From assembly GCF_024171605.1 (NCBI RefSeq), contig NZ_JALKAA010000002.1, forward strand, positions 434,001-498,000: a stretch of 64,000 bases of DNA, read 5' to 3'. This stretch comes from Pontibacter sp. HSC-36F09 (GTDB lineage: Bacteria; Bacteroidota; Bacteroidia; Cytophagales; Hymenobacteraceae). Shown here in pieces: positions 4,323-7,779 of this stretch. The stretch's first letter is position 1. Every line of letters starts with the position of its first letter. The position numbers and the translations under genes were made by a program. The notes under the pieces were generated by a model that saw only the letters and a list, made by a program, of their open reading frames with translations, did not search any database and had not been told where the DNA came from.

Positions 4323-4352
4323 TTGTTGTTTTATAAAAAGTCTCTATATTGG
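4323..4352 (+). promoter_or_regulatory. Candidate promoter of the aromatic amino acid operon
   Basis: TTG at 4323-4325, a 19-base spacer and TATATTGG at 4345-4352 fit the Bacteroidota consensus (TTG, about 20, TAnnTTTG) with one change. Transcription would start close to 4358, just before the first leader peptide at 4361, implying a very short or absent 5' leader for that ORF. Confidence 0.45.
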
Positions 4353-4360
4353 CGACTGAA

Positions 4361-4420
4361 ATGAACAAGCAGCAGACATCTTATACCTTCTTTTTTTACT
4401 TTTTTCCTTCACGGGACTAA
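4361..4420 (+). CDS. Phe/Tyr-rich leader peptide 1 (attenuator)
   Basis: This is a 19-codon ORF whose peptide contains the run YTFFFYFFP: five Phe and two Tyr in nine residues. It is followed by a G+C-rich terminator at 4451-4477. Right after the stop, GCGGG (4422-4426) can pair with CCCGC (4454-4458), which is the 5' arm of the terminator. A ribosome waiting for charged Phe- or Tyr-tRNA would leave this anti-terminator free, while a ribosome reaching the stop would cover it. This is the logic of the enterobacterial pheL attenuator. The upstream TATACCTT (4382-4389) can also pair with AAGGTATA (4429-4436), a possible pause hairpin. Confidence 0.85.
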   Translation: MNKQQTSYTFFFYFFPSRD

Positions 4421-4450
4421 AGCGGGAAAAGGTATATGTAATCATATAGA

Positions 4451-4477
4451 GGCCCCGCACCAAGCGGGGCCTTTTTT
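4451..4477 (+). terminator. Attenuator terminator 1
   Basis: A perfect 8-bp stem, GGCCCCGC (4451-4458) with GCGGGGCC (4464-4471), has a 5-base loop and is followed by six T. It lies 30 bases after the first leader peptide stop and well before the first enzyme gene, so it must act by attenuation. Confidence 0.9.
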
Positions 4478-4497
4478 GTTTTAAATCAGCAATACGA

Positions 4498-4578
4498 ATG
4501 CATCTGACACAACAGAATTTTTATTACGGCTTTGGTTTTAGCTTTTACTTTTTTGGTAAACGCCCGGGGCTGTATTGA
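4498..4578 (+). CDS. Phe/Tyr-rich leader peptide 2 (tandem attenuator)
   Basis: This is a 26-codon ORF beginning 20 bases after terminator 1. Its peptide has six Phe and four Tyr, most within FYYGFGFSFYFF. Its last codons contain CCGGGGC (4564-4570), exactly complementary to GCCCCGG (4608-4614), the 5' arm of the second terminator. A ribosome stalled on Phe/Tyr codons (4519-4557) leaves this segment free to form the anti-terminator, and a ribosome at the TGA stop (4576-4578) masks it. Two complete leader-peptide/terminator units in series before one operon is the unusual point. Confidence 0.85.
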   Translation: MHLTQQNFYYGFGFSFYFFGKRPGLY

Positions 4579-4606
4579 TTATACTTTAACCTAAAGTTAT
4601 CACCAG

Positions 4607-4639
4607 CGCCCCGGAGTCTTACTTCGGGGCGTTTTTTTT
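4607..4639 (+). terminator. Attenuator terminator 2
   Basis: CGCCCCG (4607-4613) pairs with CGGGGCG (4625-4631) and is followed by eight T (4632-4639). It ends 8 bases before the start codon of the prephenate dehydratase gene. Confidence 0.9.
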
Positions 4640-4646
4640 GATCTAA

Positions 4647-5465
4647 ATGAAAATAGCAATTCAAGGTATAGCGGGAGCATTCCACGAAGAAGCCGCCCGG
4701 CTCCGGTTCGGCGACCAGCCGATAGAGATAGTGCCCTGCCTCACGTTCCGGGAACTGGCTGCGGCTGTTGCCTCGGGGCTGGCCGATAAGGGCATTATGG
4801 CCATAGAGAATACCTTAGCGGGTACAATACAGCCCAACCTGGACCTGATACGGGAGCACCAGCTGTGGATAAGCGGCGAAGTGATCATGCGCATCCGCCA
4901 GCACCTGGGCGGTGTGCCCGGGTCGTCGCTGCAGAGTATCCGCAAGGTATACTCTCACTACATGGCCCTCAACCAGTGCCGCCCCTTCTTCGATGCCTAT
5001 CCTGCTGTGGAGCTGATTGAGTCGGAAGACACGGCGCTAAGCATCCGGAACGTAGCCGAAGCCGGCTCTACGAAGCTGGCAGCCATTGGCAGCTCGCTGG
5101 CCATTTCACAATACGGCCTTGTCGTGCTCGGAGAGGGGATCGAAACAAGCAAGCAGAACTACACCCGCTTTCTGCTGCTGGACCGGCAGCCGCAACAGGT
5201 TATTTCCTGCAACAAGGCCACCCTTAGCCTGGTGCTGCAACCCCACCCGGAAGCTTTCACGCAGGCTATGGCGCTGTTGCAGGAGCGGGGCATACAAGTC
5301 TCTAAAATCGAATCTTTGGCTATACCGGGCCGCCCCTGGCACTATCGCTATTACCTGGACCTGCGGTTTGAGGCAGAGGAGCAACTAGATGAACTGCTTT
5401 TGTCACTCTATACCTTAACTGAATCTGTCGACCTGCTCGGGAAATACACGGCCCATACCCATTAA
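4647..5465 (+). CDS. pheA: Prephenate dehydratase
   Basis: This 272-residue cytoplasmic enzyme converts prephenate to phenylpyruvate, the committed step to phenylalanine. The catalytic prephenate dehydratase domain covers about residues 1-180, starting with IAIQGIAGAFHEEAA and carrying the NYTRFLLL segment near 170. An ACT regulatory domain follows (about 190-265), with the KIESLAIPGRPW stretch corresponding to the ESRP motif that binds Phe for feedback inhibition. There is no fused chorismate mutase, which lies instead on the DAHP synthase two genes downstream. It is the first gene after two tandem Phe/Tyr attenuators and is separated from the next gene by only 10 bases. Confidence 0.95.
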   Translation: MKIAIQGIAGAFHEEAARLRFGDQPIEIVPCLTFRELAAAVASGLADKGIMAIENTLAGTIQPNLDLIREHQLWISGEVIMRIRQHLGGVPGSSLQSIRKVYSHYMALNQCRPFFDAYPAVELIESEDTALSIRNVAEAGSTKLAAIGSSLAISQYGLVVLGEGIETSKQNYTRFLLLDRQPQQVISCNKATLSLVLQPHPEAFTQAMALLQERGIQVSKIESLAIPGRPWHYRYYLDLRFEAEEQLDELLLSLYTLTESVDLLGKYTAHTH

Positions 5466-5475
5466 TCCATTTGTT

Positions 5476-6651
5476 ATGATCAATCCATCAGCACGCGCTA
5501 ACAAAACAGGCGCTTACTACTTTTCCCAAAAGCTGACCGAGATCAGTCAGCTCGAGGCACAAGGTCGCACCATCCTCAACCTGGGTATAGGCAATCCGGA
5601 TTTGGCGCCCGACCCGAAGGTGACCACAGCACTGATCGAAGCAGCCTGCCAGGCGGAGGCGCACCAGTACCAGTCGTACCGCTGCACTCCTGCCCTGCGC
5701 CAGGCGCTGAGCGCCTGGTATAAGCGAAACTTTGGGGTAGCGCTCGATTATCGGGACGAGGTCCTGCCACTTATCGGCTCTAAAGAAGGCATCATGCACC
5801 TTTCACTGGCTTTCCTGGACCCGGGCGATGAAGTGCTTATACCTGACCCCGGCTACCCCATTTATGCGAACGCAGCAGTAGCTGCCGGAGCCAAGGCAAT
5901 CTACTACAACCTGACGGCGGCGAAAGGTTGGTTGCCGGATGTGGCTGAACTGGAAAGTCTTGTCAGTCCCACCACCAAAATGCTGTGGCTTAACTTTCCG
6001 GGCAACCCGACAGGGGCTGTGGCAAGTGAAGCGGACCTGCAGGCGCTTGTCTCTTTTGCCGACAAGCACCAGATCCTGCTTTGTCATGATAATCCCTATG
6101 CGCTAATCCTCAACGAAGAGCCGCTTAGCATCTTGGCTATTAAAGGGGCAATGGAAGTGGCCGTGGAGCTCAACTCGTTAAGCAAATCGCACAATATGCC
6201 CGGCTGGCGCTTGGGTATGCTGGCCGGAAAAGCAGCCTACCTCGATGCTGTCGCGAAGATGAAAAGCTACTCAGACACTGGCATTTTCAGACCCATACAG
6301 GAAGCCGCTATCGTTGCCTTAGAGGCAGATGAAGCCTGGTATTCGGCATTGCAGTCAACCTACCTGCAAAGACGGACCCTGATATGCCAACTGCTGGATG
6401 AGCTGCAGTGTAGTTACGCCACCACGGGGGCAGGGCTATACCTGTGGGCGGCTATACCTCCCGGCTGGCAGGACAGCTTCGCTTACAGCGACTACCTGCT
6501 CAGCACGTTCGACCTGTTCGTGGCACCCGGCTCGGTATACGGTCGCAACGGCGAGGGCTACATCCGGGTAGCGCTCACGCAACCTGCCGAAGCGCTGGCA
6601 CAACTGCTACGGAGGGTGCAGCAGCATGAACTCAGCAGCCTCCAGGTATAA
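5476..6651 (+). CDS. PLP-dependent class I/II aminotransferase (probable aromatic amino acid transaminase)
   Basis: This is a 391-residue fold-type I aminotransferase. Visible landmarks are LNLGIGNPDLAPDP near the N terminus, the NFPGNPTGAV segment around 175, the HDNPYA segment, and the PLP-lysine region SLSKSHNMPGWRLG around 235-250 (Lys of SLSKS). Its position between prephenate dehydratase and DAHP synthase suggests that it transaminates phenylpyruvate and 4-hydroxyphenylpyruvate to Phe and Tyr. Related sequences are often annotated as aspartate or LL-diaminopimelate aminotransferases, so substrate specificity is inferred from context. It begins 10 bases after pheA. Confidence 0.9.
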   Translation: MINPSARANKTGAYYFSQKLTEISQLEAQGRTILNLGIGNPDLAPDPKVTTALIEAACQAEAHQYQSYRCTPALRQALSAWYKRNFGVALDYRDEVLPLIGSKEGIMHLSLAFLDPGDEVLIPDPGYPIYANAAVAAGAKAIYYNLTAAKGWLPDVAELESLVSPTTKMLWLNFPGNPTGAVASEADLQALVSFADKHQILLCHDNPYALILNEEPLSILAIKGAMEVAVELNSLSKSHNMPGWRLGMLAGKAAYLDAVAKMKSYSDTGIFRPIQEAAIVALEADEAWYSALQSTYLQRRTLICQLLDELQCSYATTGAGLYLWAAIPPGWQDSFAYSDYLLSTFDLFVAPGSVYGRNGEGYIRVALTQPAEALAQLLRRVQQHELSSLQV

Positions 6652-6696
6652 CACATCAAATAAATAGAATTCAGAAACACATCAGCTTCAACTAAT

Positions 6697-7779
6697 ATGA
6701 ATACGAAATCAGCATGGACACTAAAAGCACAGGAACAGCCTCTCATCATAGCAGGGCCTTGCAGCGCTGAAACAGAAGAGCAGGTGCTGGCGACAGCCCA
6801 TCAGTTAAAAGATGCGGGAGTGGATATCTTCAGAGCAGGCAGCTGGAAGCCCAGAACCCGCCCGGGCTCATTTGAGGGGGTAGGCCAACAGGGACTTGCC
6901 TGGCTGCAGCGCGTGCAACAGGAAACAGGCCTGCGTGTAGCGACGGAAGTAGCGAATACCCTTCATGTTGAGCAGTGCCTGCAGCACGGTATCGATGTGC
7001 TTTGGGTCGGCGCGCGTACCACGGCCAATCCGTTTGCTGTGCAGGAAATTGCAGACGCCCTGAAAGGTACAGGTATACCCGTGCTGGTCAAAAATCCTGT
7101 TAACCCGGATATAAACCTTTGGCTGGGAGCCATTGAGCGCCTGGAGAAGGCAGGTATCAAACAGGTTGGCGCCATCCACCGGGGCATCTCGCCGCTGGGC
7201 AAGTCGGTGTACCGGAACAACCCGGAGTGGAGCATGCCCATGACCCTGAAGGAGCTGCGGCCCGATCTGTTGCTGATCAACGACCCCAGCCACATTGCTG
7301 GTAACCGTCAGCTGCTGGCAGGTATAGCCGAAACAGCATTAGCCCTCCGCATGGACGGCCTGATGATCGAAACGCACATAACCCCCGAAACTGCCTGGAG
7401 TGACGCCGACCAGCAGATTACCCCACAGACCCTCCAAGAACTGCTTGCAAAACTGAGCGGCCGTCCGTTGACCACTGACACAAAAGCGGGAGCCGATCTG
7501 AACGATATGCGCCATTCTATTGACTACATTGATGAGCAACTGATTGATCTGTTGAGCTACCGCATGCAGGTGGCCGCTGAAATAGGCCACTACAAAGCGC
7601 AGCATAACCTTACCGTGTTCCAGGAAAACAGGTGGGCGCAGCTGCTTGAAAAACACACCAGTCTCGCTCTGAGCAAAAATCTTAATGAGGAATTTGTCAC
7701 GCAGTTGTTCGACCGCATCCATCAGGAGTCGGTGAGGAGACAGCAGAGGGTGCTGCCGCTTATACCTGCGCGGGCCTAG
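6697..7779 (+). CDS. Bifunctional DAHP synthase / chorismate mutase type II
   Basis: This 360-residue protein joins the first enzyme of the shikimate pathway to chorismate mutase. Residues 1-250 form a KDPG-like DAHP synthase of the AroA-beta type (IIAGPCSAETEEQV, FRAGSWKPRTRPGSFEG, NDPSHIAGNRQL, MIETHITPE). Residues about 265-345 form an AroQ-class chorismate mutase (DLNDMRHSIDYIDEQLIDLL, then RMQVAAEIGHYKAQ). The fusion channels or allosterically couples entry into the pathway with prephenate formation, as known for Bacteroidota and Bacillus-type fusions. It is last in the operon, 45 bases after the aminotransferase. No prephenate dehydrogenase (tyrA) follows, so the tyrosine branch enzyme must be elsewhere. 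Confidence 0.95.
   Translation: MNTKSAWTLKAQEQPLIIAGPCSAETEEQVLATAHQLKDAGVDIFRAGSWKPRTRPGSFEGVGQQGLAWLQRVQQETGLRVATEVANTLHVEQCLQHGIDVLWVGARTTANPFAVQEIADALKGTGIPVLVKNPVNPDINLWLGAIERLEKAGIKQVGAIHRGISPLGKSVYRNNPEWSMPMTLKELRPDLLLINDPSHIAGNRQLLAGIAETALALRMDGLMIETHITPETAWSDADQQITPQTLQELLAKLSGRPLTTDTKAGADLNDMRHSIDYIDEQLIDLLSYRMQVAAEIGHYKAQHNLTVFQENRWAQLLEKHTSLALSKNLNEEFVTQLFDRIHQESVRRQQRVLPLIPARA

Follow-up and report, generated by a model that had tools for sequence, protein, structure and literature searches.

Biosynthetic-operon attenuation is usually taught as a single switch, and pheL-pheA and trpL of enterobacteria are controlled by ribosome-mediated transcription attenuation of this kind. Does the aromatic operon of a Pontibacter pass through two such switches in series, and what would the second one add? 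The locus lies in the window, the whole 64,000-nucleotide stretch of DNA analysed here. A sequence-only reading had placed two attenuation units in series before pheA, and our analysis found both, each with a leader ORF, a terminator and a possible antiterminator, in 9/9 sampled species of the clade to which the window's pheA belongs. The features are as follows.

4323-4352, + strand: single putative promoter, with TTG at 4323-4325 and a -7 box, TATATTGG, at 4345-4352, close to the TAnnTTTG type of Bacteroidota
4361-4420, + strand: leader ORF 1, 19 aa, MNKQQTSYTFFFYFFPSRD
4382-4436, + strand: protector (1:2) stem of unit 1, leader codons from 4382 onward with 4413-4436, fold of -14.8 kcal/mol
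4422-4458, + strand: possible antiterminator (2:3) of unit 1, 4422-4426 with 4454-4458 and an inner helix 4433-4438/4443-4448, -13.9 kcal/mol
4448-4477, + strand: terminator 1 (3:4), stem 4448-4458/4464-4474, U-run 4472-4477
4498-4578, + strand: leader ORF 2, 26 aa, MHLTQQNFYYGFGFSFYFFGKRPGLY
4525-4574, + strand: protector (1:2) stem of unit 2, main helix 4525-4535 with 4564-4574, -20.4 kcal/mol
4562-4617, + strand: possible antiterminator (2:3) of unit 2, 4562-4573 with 4606-4617, -21.6 kcal/mol
4605-4639, + strand: terminator 2 (3:4), stem 4605-4617/4621-4633, U-run 4632-4639
4647-5465, + strand: pheA, prephenate dehydratase (PF00800, E 6e-53)
5476-6651, + strand: class I/II aminotransferase (PF00155, E 2e-58)
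6697-7779, + strand: DAHP synthase fused to chorismate mutase (PF00793 and PF01817)

Leader ORFs of 19 and 26 codons had been predicted, and both are present and rich in Phe and Tyr. The terminators, placed earlier at 4451-4477 and 4607-4639, were correct to within a few bases. Folding reproduced both proposed antiterminator pairings, 4422-4426 with 4454-4458 in unit 1 and 4564-4570 with 4608-4614 in unit 2, the latter inside the longer helix 4562-4573/4606-4617. The folding check suggested at the time also came out in favour, each leader region being more stable than all 200 of its dinucleotide shuffles (z -4.5 for 4362-4480 and -5.7 for 4490-4642). Rfam model RF01859 (Phe_leader) scores 33.8 bits on unit 1 (4360-4479, E 0.0019) and 24.7 bits on unit 2 (4516-4639, E 0.2), both below its 55-bit gathering threshold.

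The two-unit region is bounded by a divergent cold-shock gene on one side and by pheA on the other. Terminator 1 as the end of an upstream gene was ruled out; because the cold-shock gene is divergent, the terminator is not that gene's own. TAnnTTTG is given as the Bacteroidota consensus (PMC9723704). On the + strand between 4101 and 4520 this strict form has no match, and the sole match to TAnnTT[TG]G is the putative promoter box, with no second such box between the two units. The TTG element and the TAnnTTGG box are conserved in 9/9 aligned species. If the putative promoter is correct, transcription would begin just a few bases 5' of leader 1. The -7 box ends 8 nt upstream of the leader 1 start codon, and because the two are so close, leader 1 may be translated from a nearly leaderless mRNA. 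Several trp leaders of another genus of the family, g6, have TACATTTG a few bases 5' of the ATG.

The nine species of the clade keep the reading frame and most F/Y codons of both leaders while neighbouring codons change. Codons 8-16 of leader 1 are invariant in all nine, and codons 6, 17, and 18 change amino acid; its stop codon is TAA in seven species and TGA in two. As the F/Y block of leader 1 has no synonymous changes, codon constraint and RNA-pairing constraint are inseparable there. Leader 2 is invariant at codons 15-20 and free to vary at codons 2 and 3, and the amino acid at its F/Y codons 8, 9, 10, and 14 is altered in 1, 3, 2, and 1 of the nine species, respectively. The terminators of both units are found in 9/9 species at -19.8 to -23.9 kcal/mol.

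The doubled arrangement is not peculiar to this genome and recurs in other Bacteroidota. A unit was counted where a short ORF carrying five or more F/Y within 10 codons had an intrinsic terminator no more than 100 nt behind it (four or more F/Y at a looser cut-off). We surveyed upstream regions of pheA only, at loci with at least 300 nt upstream; the shorter L080, L095, and L164 were excluded. At the standard cut-off, the 258 pheA loci comprise 50 with two units, 123 with one, and 85 with none; these loci are not independent, because many were sampled by kinship or by similarity to the window's pheA. The looser cut-off gives two units at 55/258. Dinucleotide shuffles of 66 loci, five each, yielded one unit in 1/330 and two in 0/330 at the standard cut-off, and shuffles of 110 non-fused loci, again five each, yielded one in 6/550 and two in 0/550 at the looser. 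These shuffled upstreams rule out chance or AT-rich composition as the source of two units, and an assembly artefact is rejected because the tandem arrangement is common to nine species.

Two units were found in 9/9 sampled Pontibacter species of the window's pheA clade, while the other Pontibacter loci (n=25) have one unit in 23 cases and none scored in two. Genus g5, probably Hymenobacter, has two units at 31 of 42 loci and one at 11; these loci are the best 21 matches of a listing, one locus from the order sample, and 20 hand-picked from the same listing. Some of the one-unit g5 loci are of unit-1 type (e.g. L041, L047, and L253) and L265 is of unit-2 type, leader and terminator having been read by eye. 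Two units occur at 3/3 pheA loci of g4, and one at 5/5 of g3 and 2/2 of g6. The MAG loci L060, L062, L065, L066, and L105 have two units at the standard cut-off, as do L159 and L197; L061, L063, and L067 have two only at the looser cut-off, and L064 has one. L121 is tandem solely at the looser cut-off and is possibly false.

Broader samples gave low counts. An even sample of the class had a PDT match in 41/149 genomes, and its 39 loci outside the family comprise two with two units, 20 with one, and 17 with none. The order sample had a match in 75/98 genomes; among its 64 counted loci, one has two units (the g5 locus), seven have one, and 56 have none, and in 39 of the 64 pheA is fused to chorismate mutase. 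Two units thus appear uncommon across the phylum and concentrated in certain lineages. Units are also rare before the fused gene, since only four of the 39 fused chorismate mutase-PheA loci with enough upstream sequence (among L162-L231) have one and 35 have none at the looser cut-off. As a side observation, in 16/50 Pontibacter genomes of a genus sample this query finds no PheA at E 1e-20; they are perhaps Phe auxotrophs or have a very divergent enzyme.

We then compared the alternative structures with shuffled controls. The protector stem of unit 2 is significant (p<0.05) in 8/9 clade loci and that of unit 1 in 0/9, although 21 pairs of the latter are conserved in all nine species, with one-sided U-A to U-G changes at three. 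The antiterminator of unit 2 beats shuffled spacers in 9/9 loci both in a duplex test (p<0.01) and in a ribosome-position model with a 15-nt ribosome footprint (p<0.05). That of unit 1, a 5-pair GC helix plus an AU helix, reaches p<0.05 against shuffled spacers in 0/9 loci by either method; across the nine species its outer helix is paired in 100% and its inner helix in 92.6% of cells. In the comparison with relatives that the sequence-only reading called for, both units are present in 9/9 species, but the unit 1 antiterminator gains no statistical support. Compensatory changes are lacking: across these closely related species, the three structures contain no pair altered on both sides.

Elsewhere the duplex test gives p<0.05 for 23/23 single units of other Pontibacter and 80/83 of other loci; in g5 it does so for 0/11 single units and 14/31 unit-1 loci, and the ribosome-position model places unit 1 of g5 tandem loci above shuffled spacers in 21/31. 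With stalls averaged over the F/Y codons, a stalled ribosome in this model lets upstream RNA sequester segment 3 more strongly than a stop-codon ribosome does, by a margin of >3 kcal/mol, in 9/9 loci for each clade unit and in 217/221 units of all non-fused pheA loci (two units from fused loci are left out). This contrast is partly trivial and weak alone, because a stop-codon ribosome always leaves less free RNA to pair; shuffled spacers are therefore the better control, and against them 154/221 units reach p<0.05. We also swapped segments among 71 units from cluster representatives. Segments 2 and 3 from the same unit pair at a mean of -12.6 kcal/mol versus -8.9 kcal/mol when swapped, and 0/5000 permutations were as good. 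The effect in individual units is moderate: the native combination is in the best 10% for 34/71 units when the own spacer meets a foreign segment 3 and for 26/71 when a foreign spacer meets the own segment 3, with median fractions of equally good swaps of 0.10 and 0.17, respectively.

What the leaders would sense can be judged from the genome's own pathways. A search for TyrA (PF02153) in this genome returned nothing above the cut-off, the best score being 21.8 bits versus 26.5, and 14/14 control genomes were positive. One TyrA candidate, L342, was discarded on reading by eye as an unrelated NADP-type oxidoreductase. The genome (G000; L342, L343) encodes an aromatic amino acid (phenylalanine) hydroxylase, PF00351, at 141 bits. 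As there is no TyrA above cut-off and a hydroxylase is present, Tyr is probably made from Phe, as judged from one assembly of 99.99% estimated completeness. The pheA operon would therefore probably feed both amino acids, and it seems to be the only route to Phe and Tyr in this genome, which a mixed Phe/Tyr signal at both stages fits.

Our preferred reading, at about 80% probability, is that the operon of pheA, the aminotransferase, and the DAHP synthase/chorismate mutase is controlled by a pair of ribosome-mediated transcription attenuators arranged in series. With Phe and Tyr in ample supply, the ribosome would reach the stop codon of leader 1 and cover segment 2, and terminator 1 would form. 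A polymerase slipping past it would be tested again, in the same way, at leader 2 with its terminator 2. Under a shortage of Phe-tRNA or Tyr-tRNA, the ribosome would stall in the F/Y codons, segments 2 and 3 would pair, and the terminator would be blocked. Both stages would read one mixed Phe/Tyr signal. Because a full-length transcript requires antitermination or read-through at both stages, the read-through fractions should multiply, and multiplication would push the floor lower, and make the logarithmic gain larger, than a single stage could. The anatomy, the presence in 9/9 clade species, and the recurrence in Bacteroidota support two attenuators in series as read from sequence, with the unit 1 antiterminator statistically unsupported in the clade.

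That last point is the weak one, and in a different account only unit 2 works, unit 1 is decaying or newly gained, and terminator 1 is a plain constitutive 5' terminator lowering expression. Besides the 0/9 result for the unit 1 antiterminator, this account can draw on the resemblance of leader 2, and not leader 1, to resident Pontibacter leaders (see below), and on the one-unit g5 genomes, which show that either type may be absent. Yet codons 8-16 of leader 1 have stayed invariant in 9/9 species while codons 6, 17, and 18 changed, the 1:2 stem and the outer 2:3 helix of unit 1 are fully conserved (though invariance says little on pairing), and unit 1 of g5 tandem loci beats shuffles in 21/31. 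We consider this account unlikely.

The two units might also divide the labour, one sensing Phe and the other Tyr, as the sequence-only reading had offered as an option. Their F:Y counts in the window are indeed unequal, 5:2 in leader 1 versus 6:4 in leader 2. However, F and Y occur in both leaders at 50/50 tandem loci, which speaks against separate sensing, and the F fraction shows no consistent direction between the units at these 50 loci (mean F/(F+Y) 0.54 for unit 1 and 0.58 for unit 2, higher in unit 2 in 23/50). Modelled stalls at Y and at F codons moreover both free the antiterminator, least at the first Y of leader 1, and such a division is very improbable. It is harder still to credit that the leaders terminate chiefly to yield short trans-acting regulatory RNAs or peptides: a strong terminator does end each leader, but the codons of the leaders match what the operon makes, and in the swap test segment 2 follows segment 3 across lineages, on average. 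We thus retain two attenuators in series reading one mixed signal.

The history of the locus appears composite. A PheA tree with 84 rows groups the window's protein with L060, L061, L063, and L065 (99/91) and places the other Pontibacter representatives, together with one g6 row, in a clade of their own (100/99). The long-branched or odd L132, L176, L195, L196, L219, L209, and L229 are omitted from this tree and present in a quick tree. In a comparison that covered 72 loci (L060-L131) and ten larger stretches from members of the family, the nearest DAHP synthase-chorismate mutase outside the clade is that of L060 at 59%. Given this match and the tree position, the operon seems to have been acquired from another part of Bacteroidota, and its putative donor lineage looks mostly two-unit itself. 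The aromatic operon at 4647-7779 of the window appears xenologous to other Pontibacter operons. Within the clade, DAHP synthase-chorismate mutase starts within about 230 nt of the end of pheA in L052, L053, L055, and L057-L059; given this gap, these six members lack, at that place, the aminotransferase gene present in the window, L054, and L056.

Leader 2 points in another direction. It matches the single leader of another, resident Pontibacter at 32/35 nucleotides, all of its 20 best non-clade matches are to single leaders of Pontibacter, and its best score is 55 against a resident leader versus 21 against the leaders of L060-L067. Synonymous recoding of leader 2 attained the resident-match score in 1/500 and 0/500 draws. 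The simplest reading, though unproven, would be a mosaic of a resident leader and a foreign operon. For unit 1, no group stands out by sequence similarity. The two-unit state needs at least eight changes on the 84-row tree, and the smallest clade with all such rows holds 63/84; a single origin without many losses is therefore unsupported. Gains and losses of units are indistinguishable on the PheA tree.

The arrangement resembles enterobacterial pheL-pheA and trpL in its cognate-codon leader ORF, 1:2, 2:3, and 3:4 stems, intrinsic terminator, and biosynthetic operon. It differs in having two units in series, mixed Phe/Tyr leaders, and a sub-threshold Rfam Phe_leader score. The open-licence literature searched yielded no case of leader-peptide attenuators that read the same signal and are stacked before a gene of amino-acid biosynthesis. 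Some of these leaders could be reported in a broad comparative study of attenuation by Lopatovskaya et al. (2010). The mechanism class is already known, and the stacked same-signal stages before an amino-acid biosynthesis gene would be the apparently new part.

Several paired systems come close. The mefA/msrD operon has two macrolide-sensing attenuators, described in 2023 as a "double lock" against basal expression (PMC10314930). Unlike those of Pontibacter, they serve resistance genes and rely on drug-induced stalling at a tiny leader; because the second regulates msrD exclusively, according to the same article, they are not stacked before one gene. Salmonella mgtCBR has two attenuators for ATP and proline, which act independently and additively and are described as having no intrinsic terminators (PMC3641672). 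Pontibacter likewise has two short ORFs in one leader, each within an attenuation-like switch, but its leaders share codons and each has an intrinsic terminator, the same signal being read from sequence only. That 2012 Salmonella paper states that nutrient-biosynthesis genes normally have a single attenuator and calls its own different-signal pair a "singular example" (PMC3641672). Two terminator-type switches in series are also found in the tandem riboswitches of Bacillus clausii metE (cited within PMC3641672), which, unlike the Pontibacter units, are RNA aptamers for two metabolites without a leader peptide. In Bacteroidota, Flavobacterium psychrophilum has, like Pontibacter, a structured 5' element before pheA, and leader-peptide attenuation has been proposed for its amino-acid operons; unlike for Pontibacter, the passages of that article on the pheA element mention no tandem arrangement (PMC9723704).

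A second stage could matter for the repressed floor. The single attenuator of E. coli trp has a basal read-through of 10-15%, as quoted in a modelling paper (PMC1183508), and two stages at this level would give 1-2% by arithmetic only. Among related genomes, the number of like units preceding this gene is zero, one, or two, and some genomes have only the unit-1 or only the unit-2 type. This natural variety offers a way to test whether stacking is multiplicative, which floor and gain it confers, and why some lineages have two.

Other operons of the family have leaders as well. An ORF with at least two Trp in 10 codons precedes trpE at 30/30 family loci, and one with at least four His in 10 codons precedes hisG at 25/30, both being raw counts. 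The g6 trpE loci (L327-L330, L336, L339, and L341) have two WW leaders with a hairpin between them in 7/7 cases, spanning about -320 to -10 before trpE, with a terminator ahead of trpE. L327 and L329 have a weak U-run after the first hairpin, and the second leader of L327 was found by eye. We take this as a candidate tandem Trp attenuator in another genus of the family. It seems reasonably probable that same-signal attenuators in series are a recurrent Bacteroidota design, for Phe/Tyr in the Pontibacter clade, g5, g4, and several MAG lineages and separately for Trp in g6; that stacking before one gene lowers the repressed floor and sharpens the response; and that units behave as modules in their gain, loss, and swapping, which extends even to a resident leader with a foreign operon. 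The hisG loci L282-L311 (L298 in the window's own genome) have His-rich leaders of HHHFHHSS type, mostly without a terminator detectable by scan, and a different attenuation mode is possible for them.
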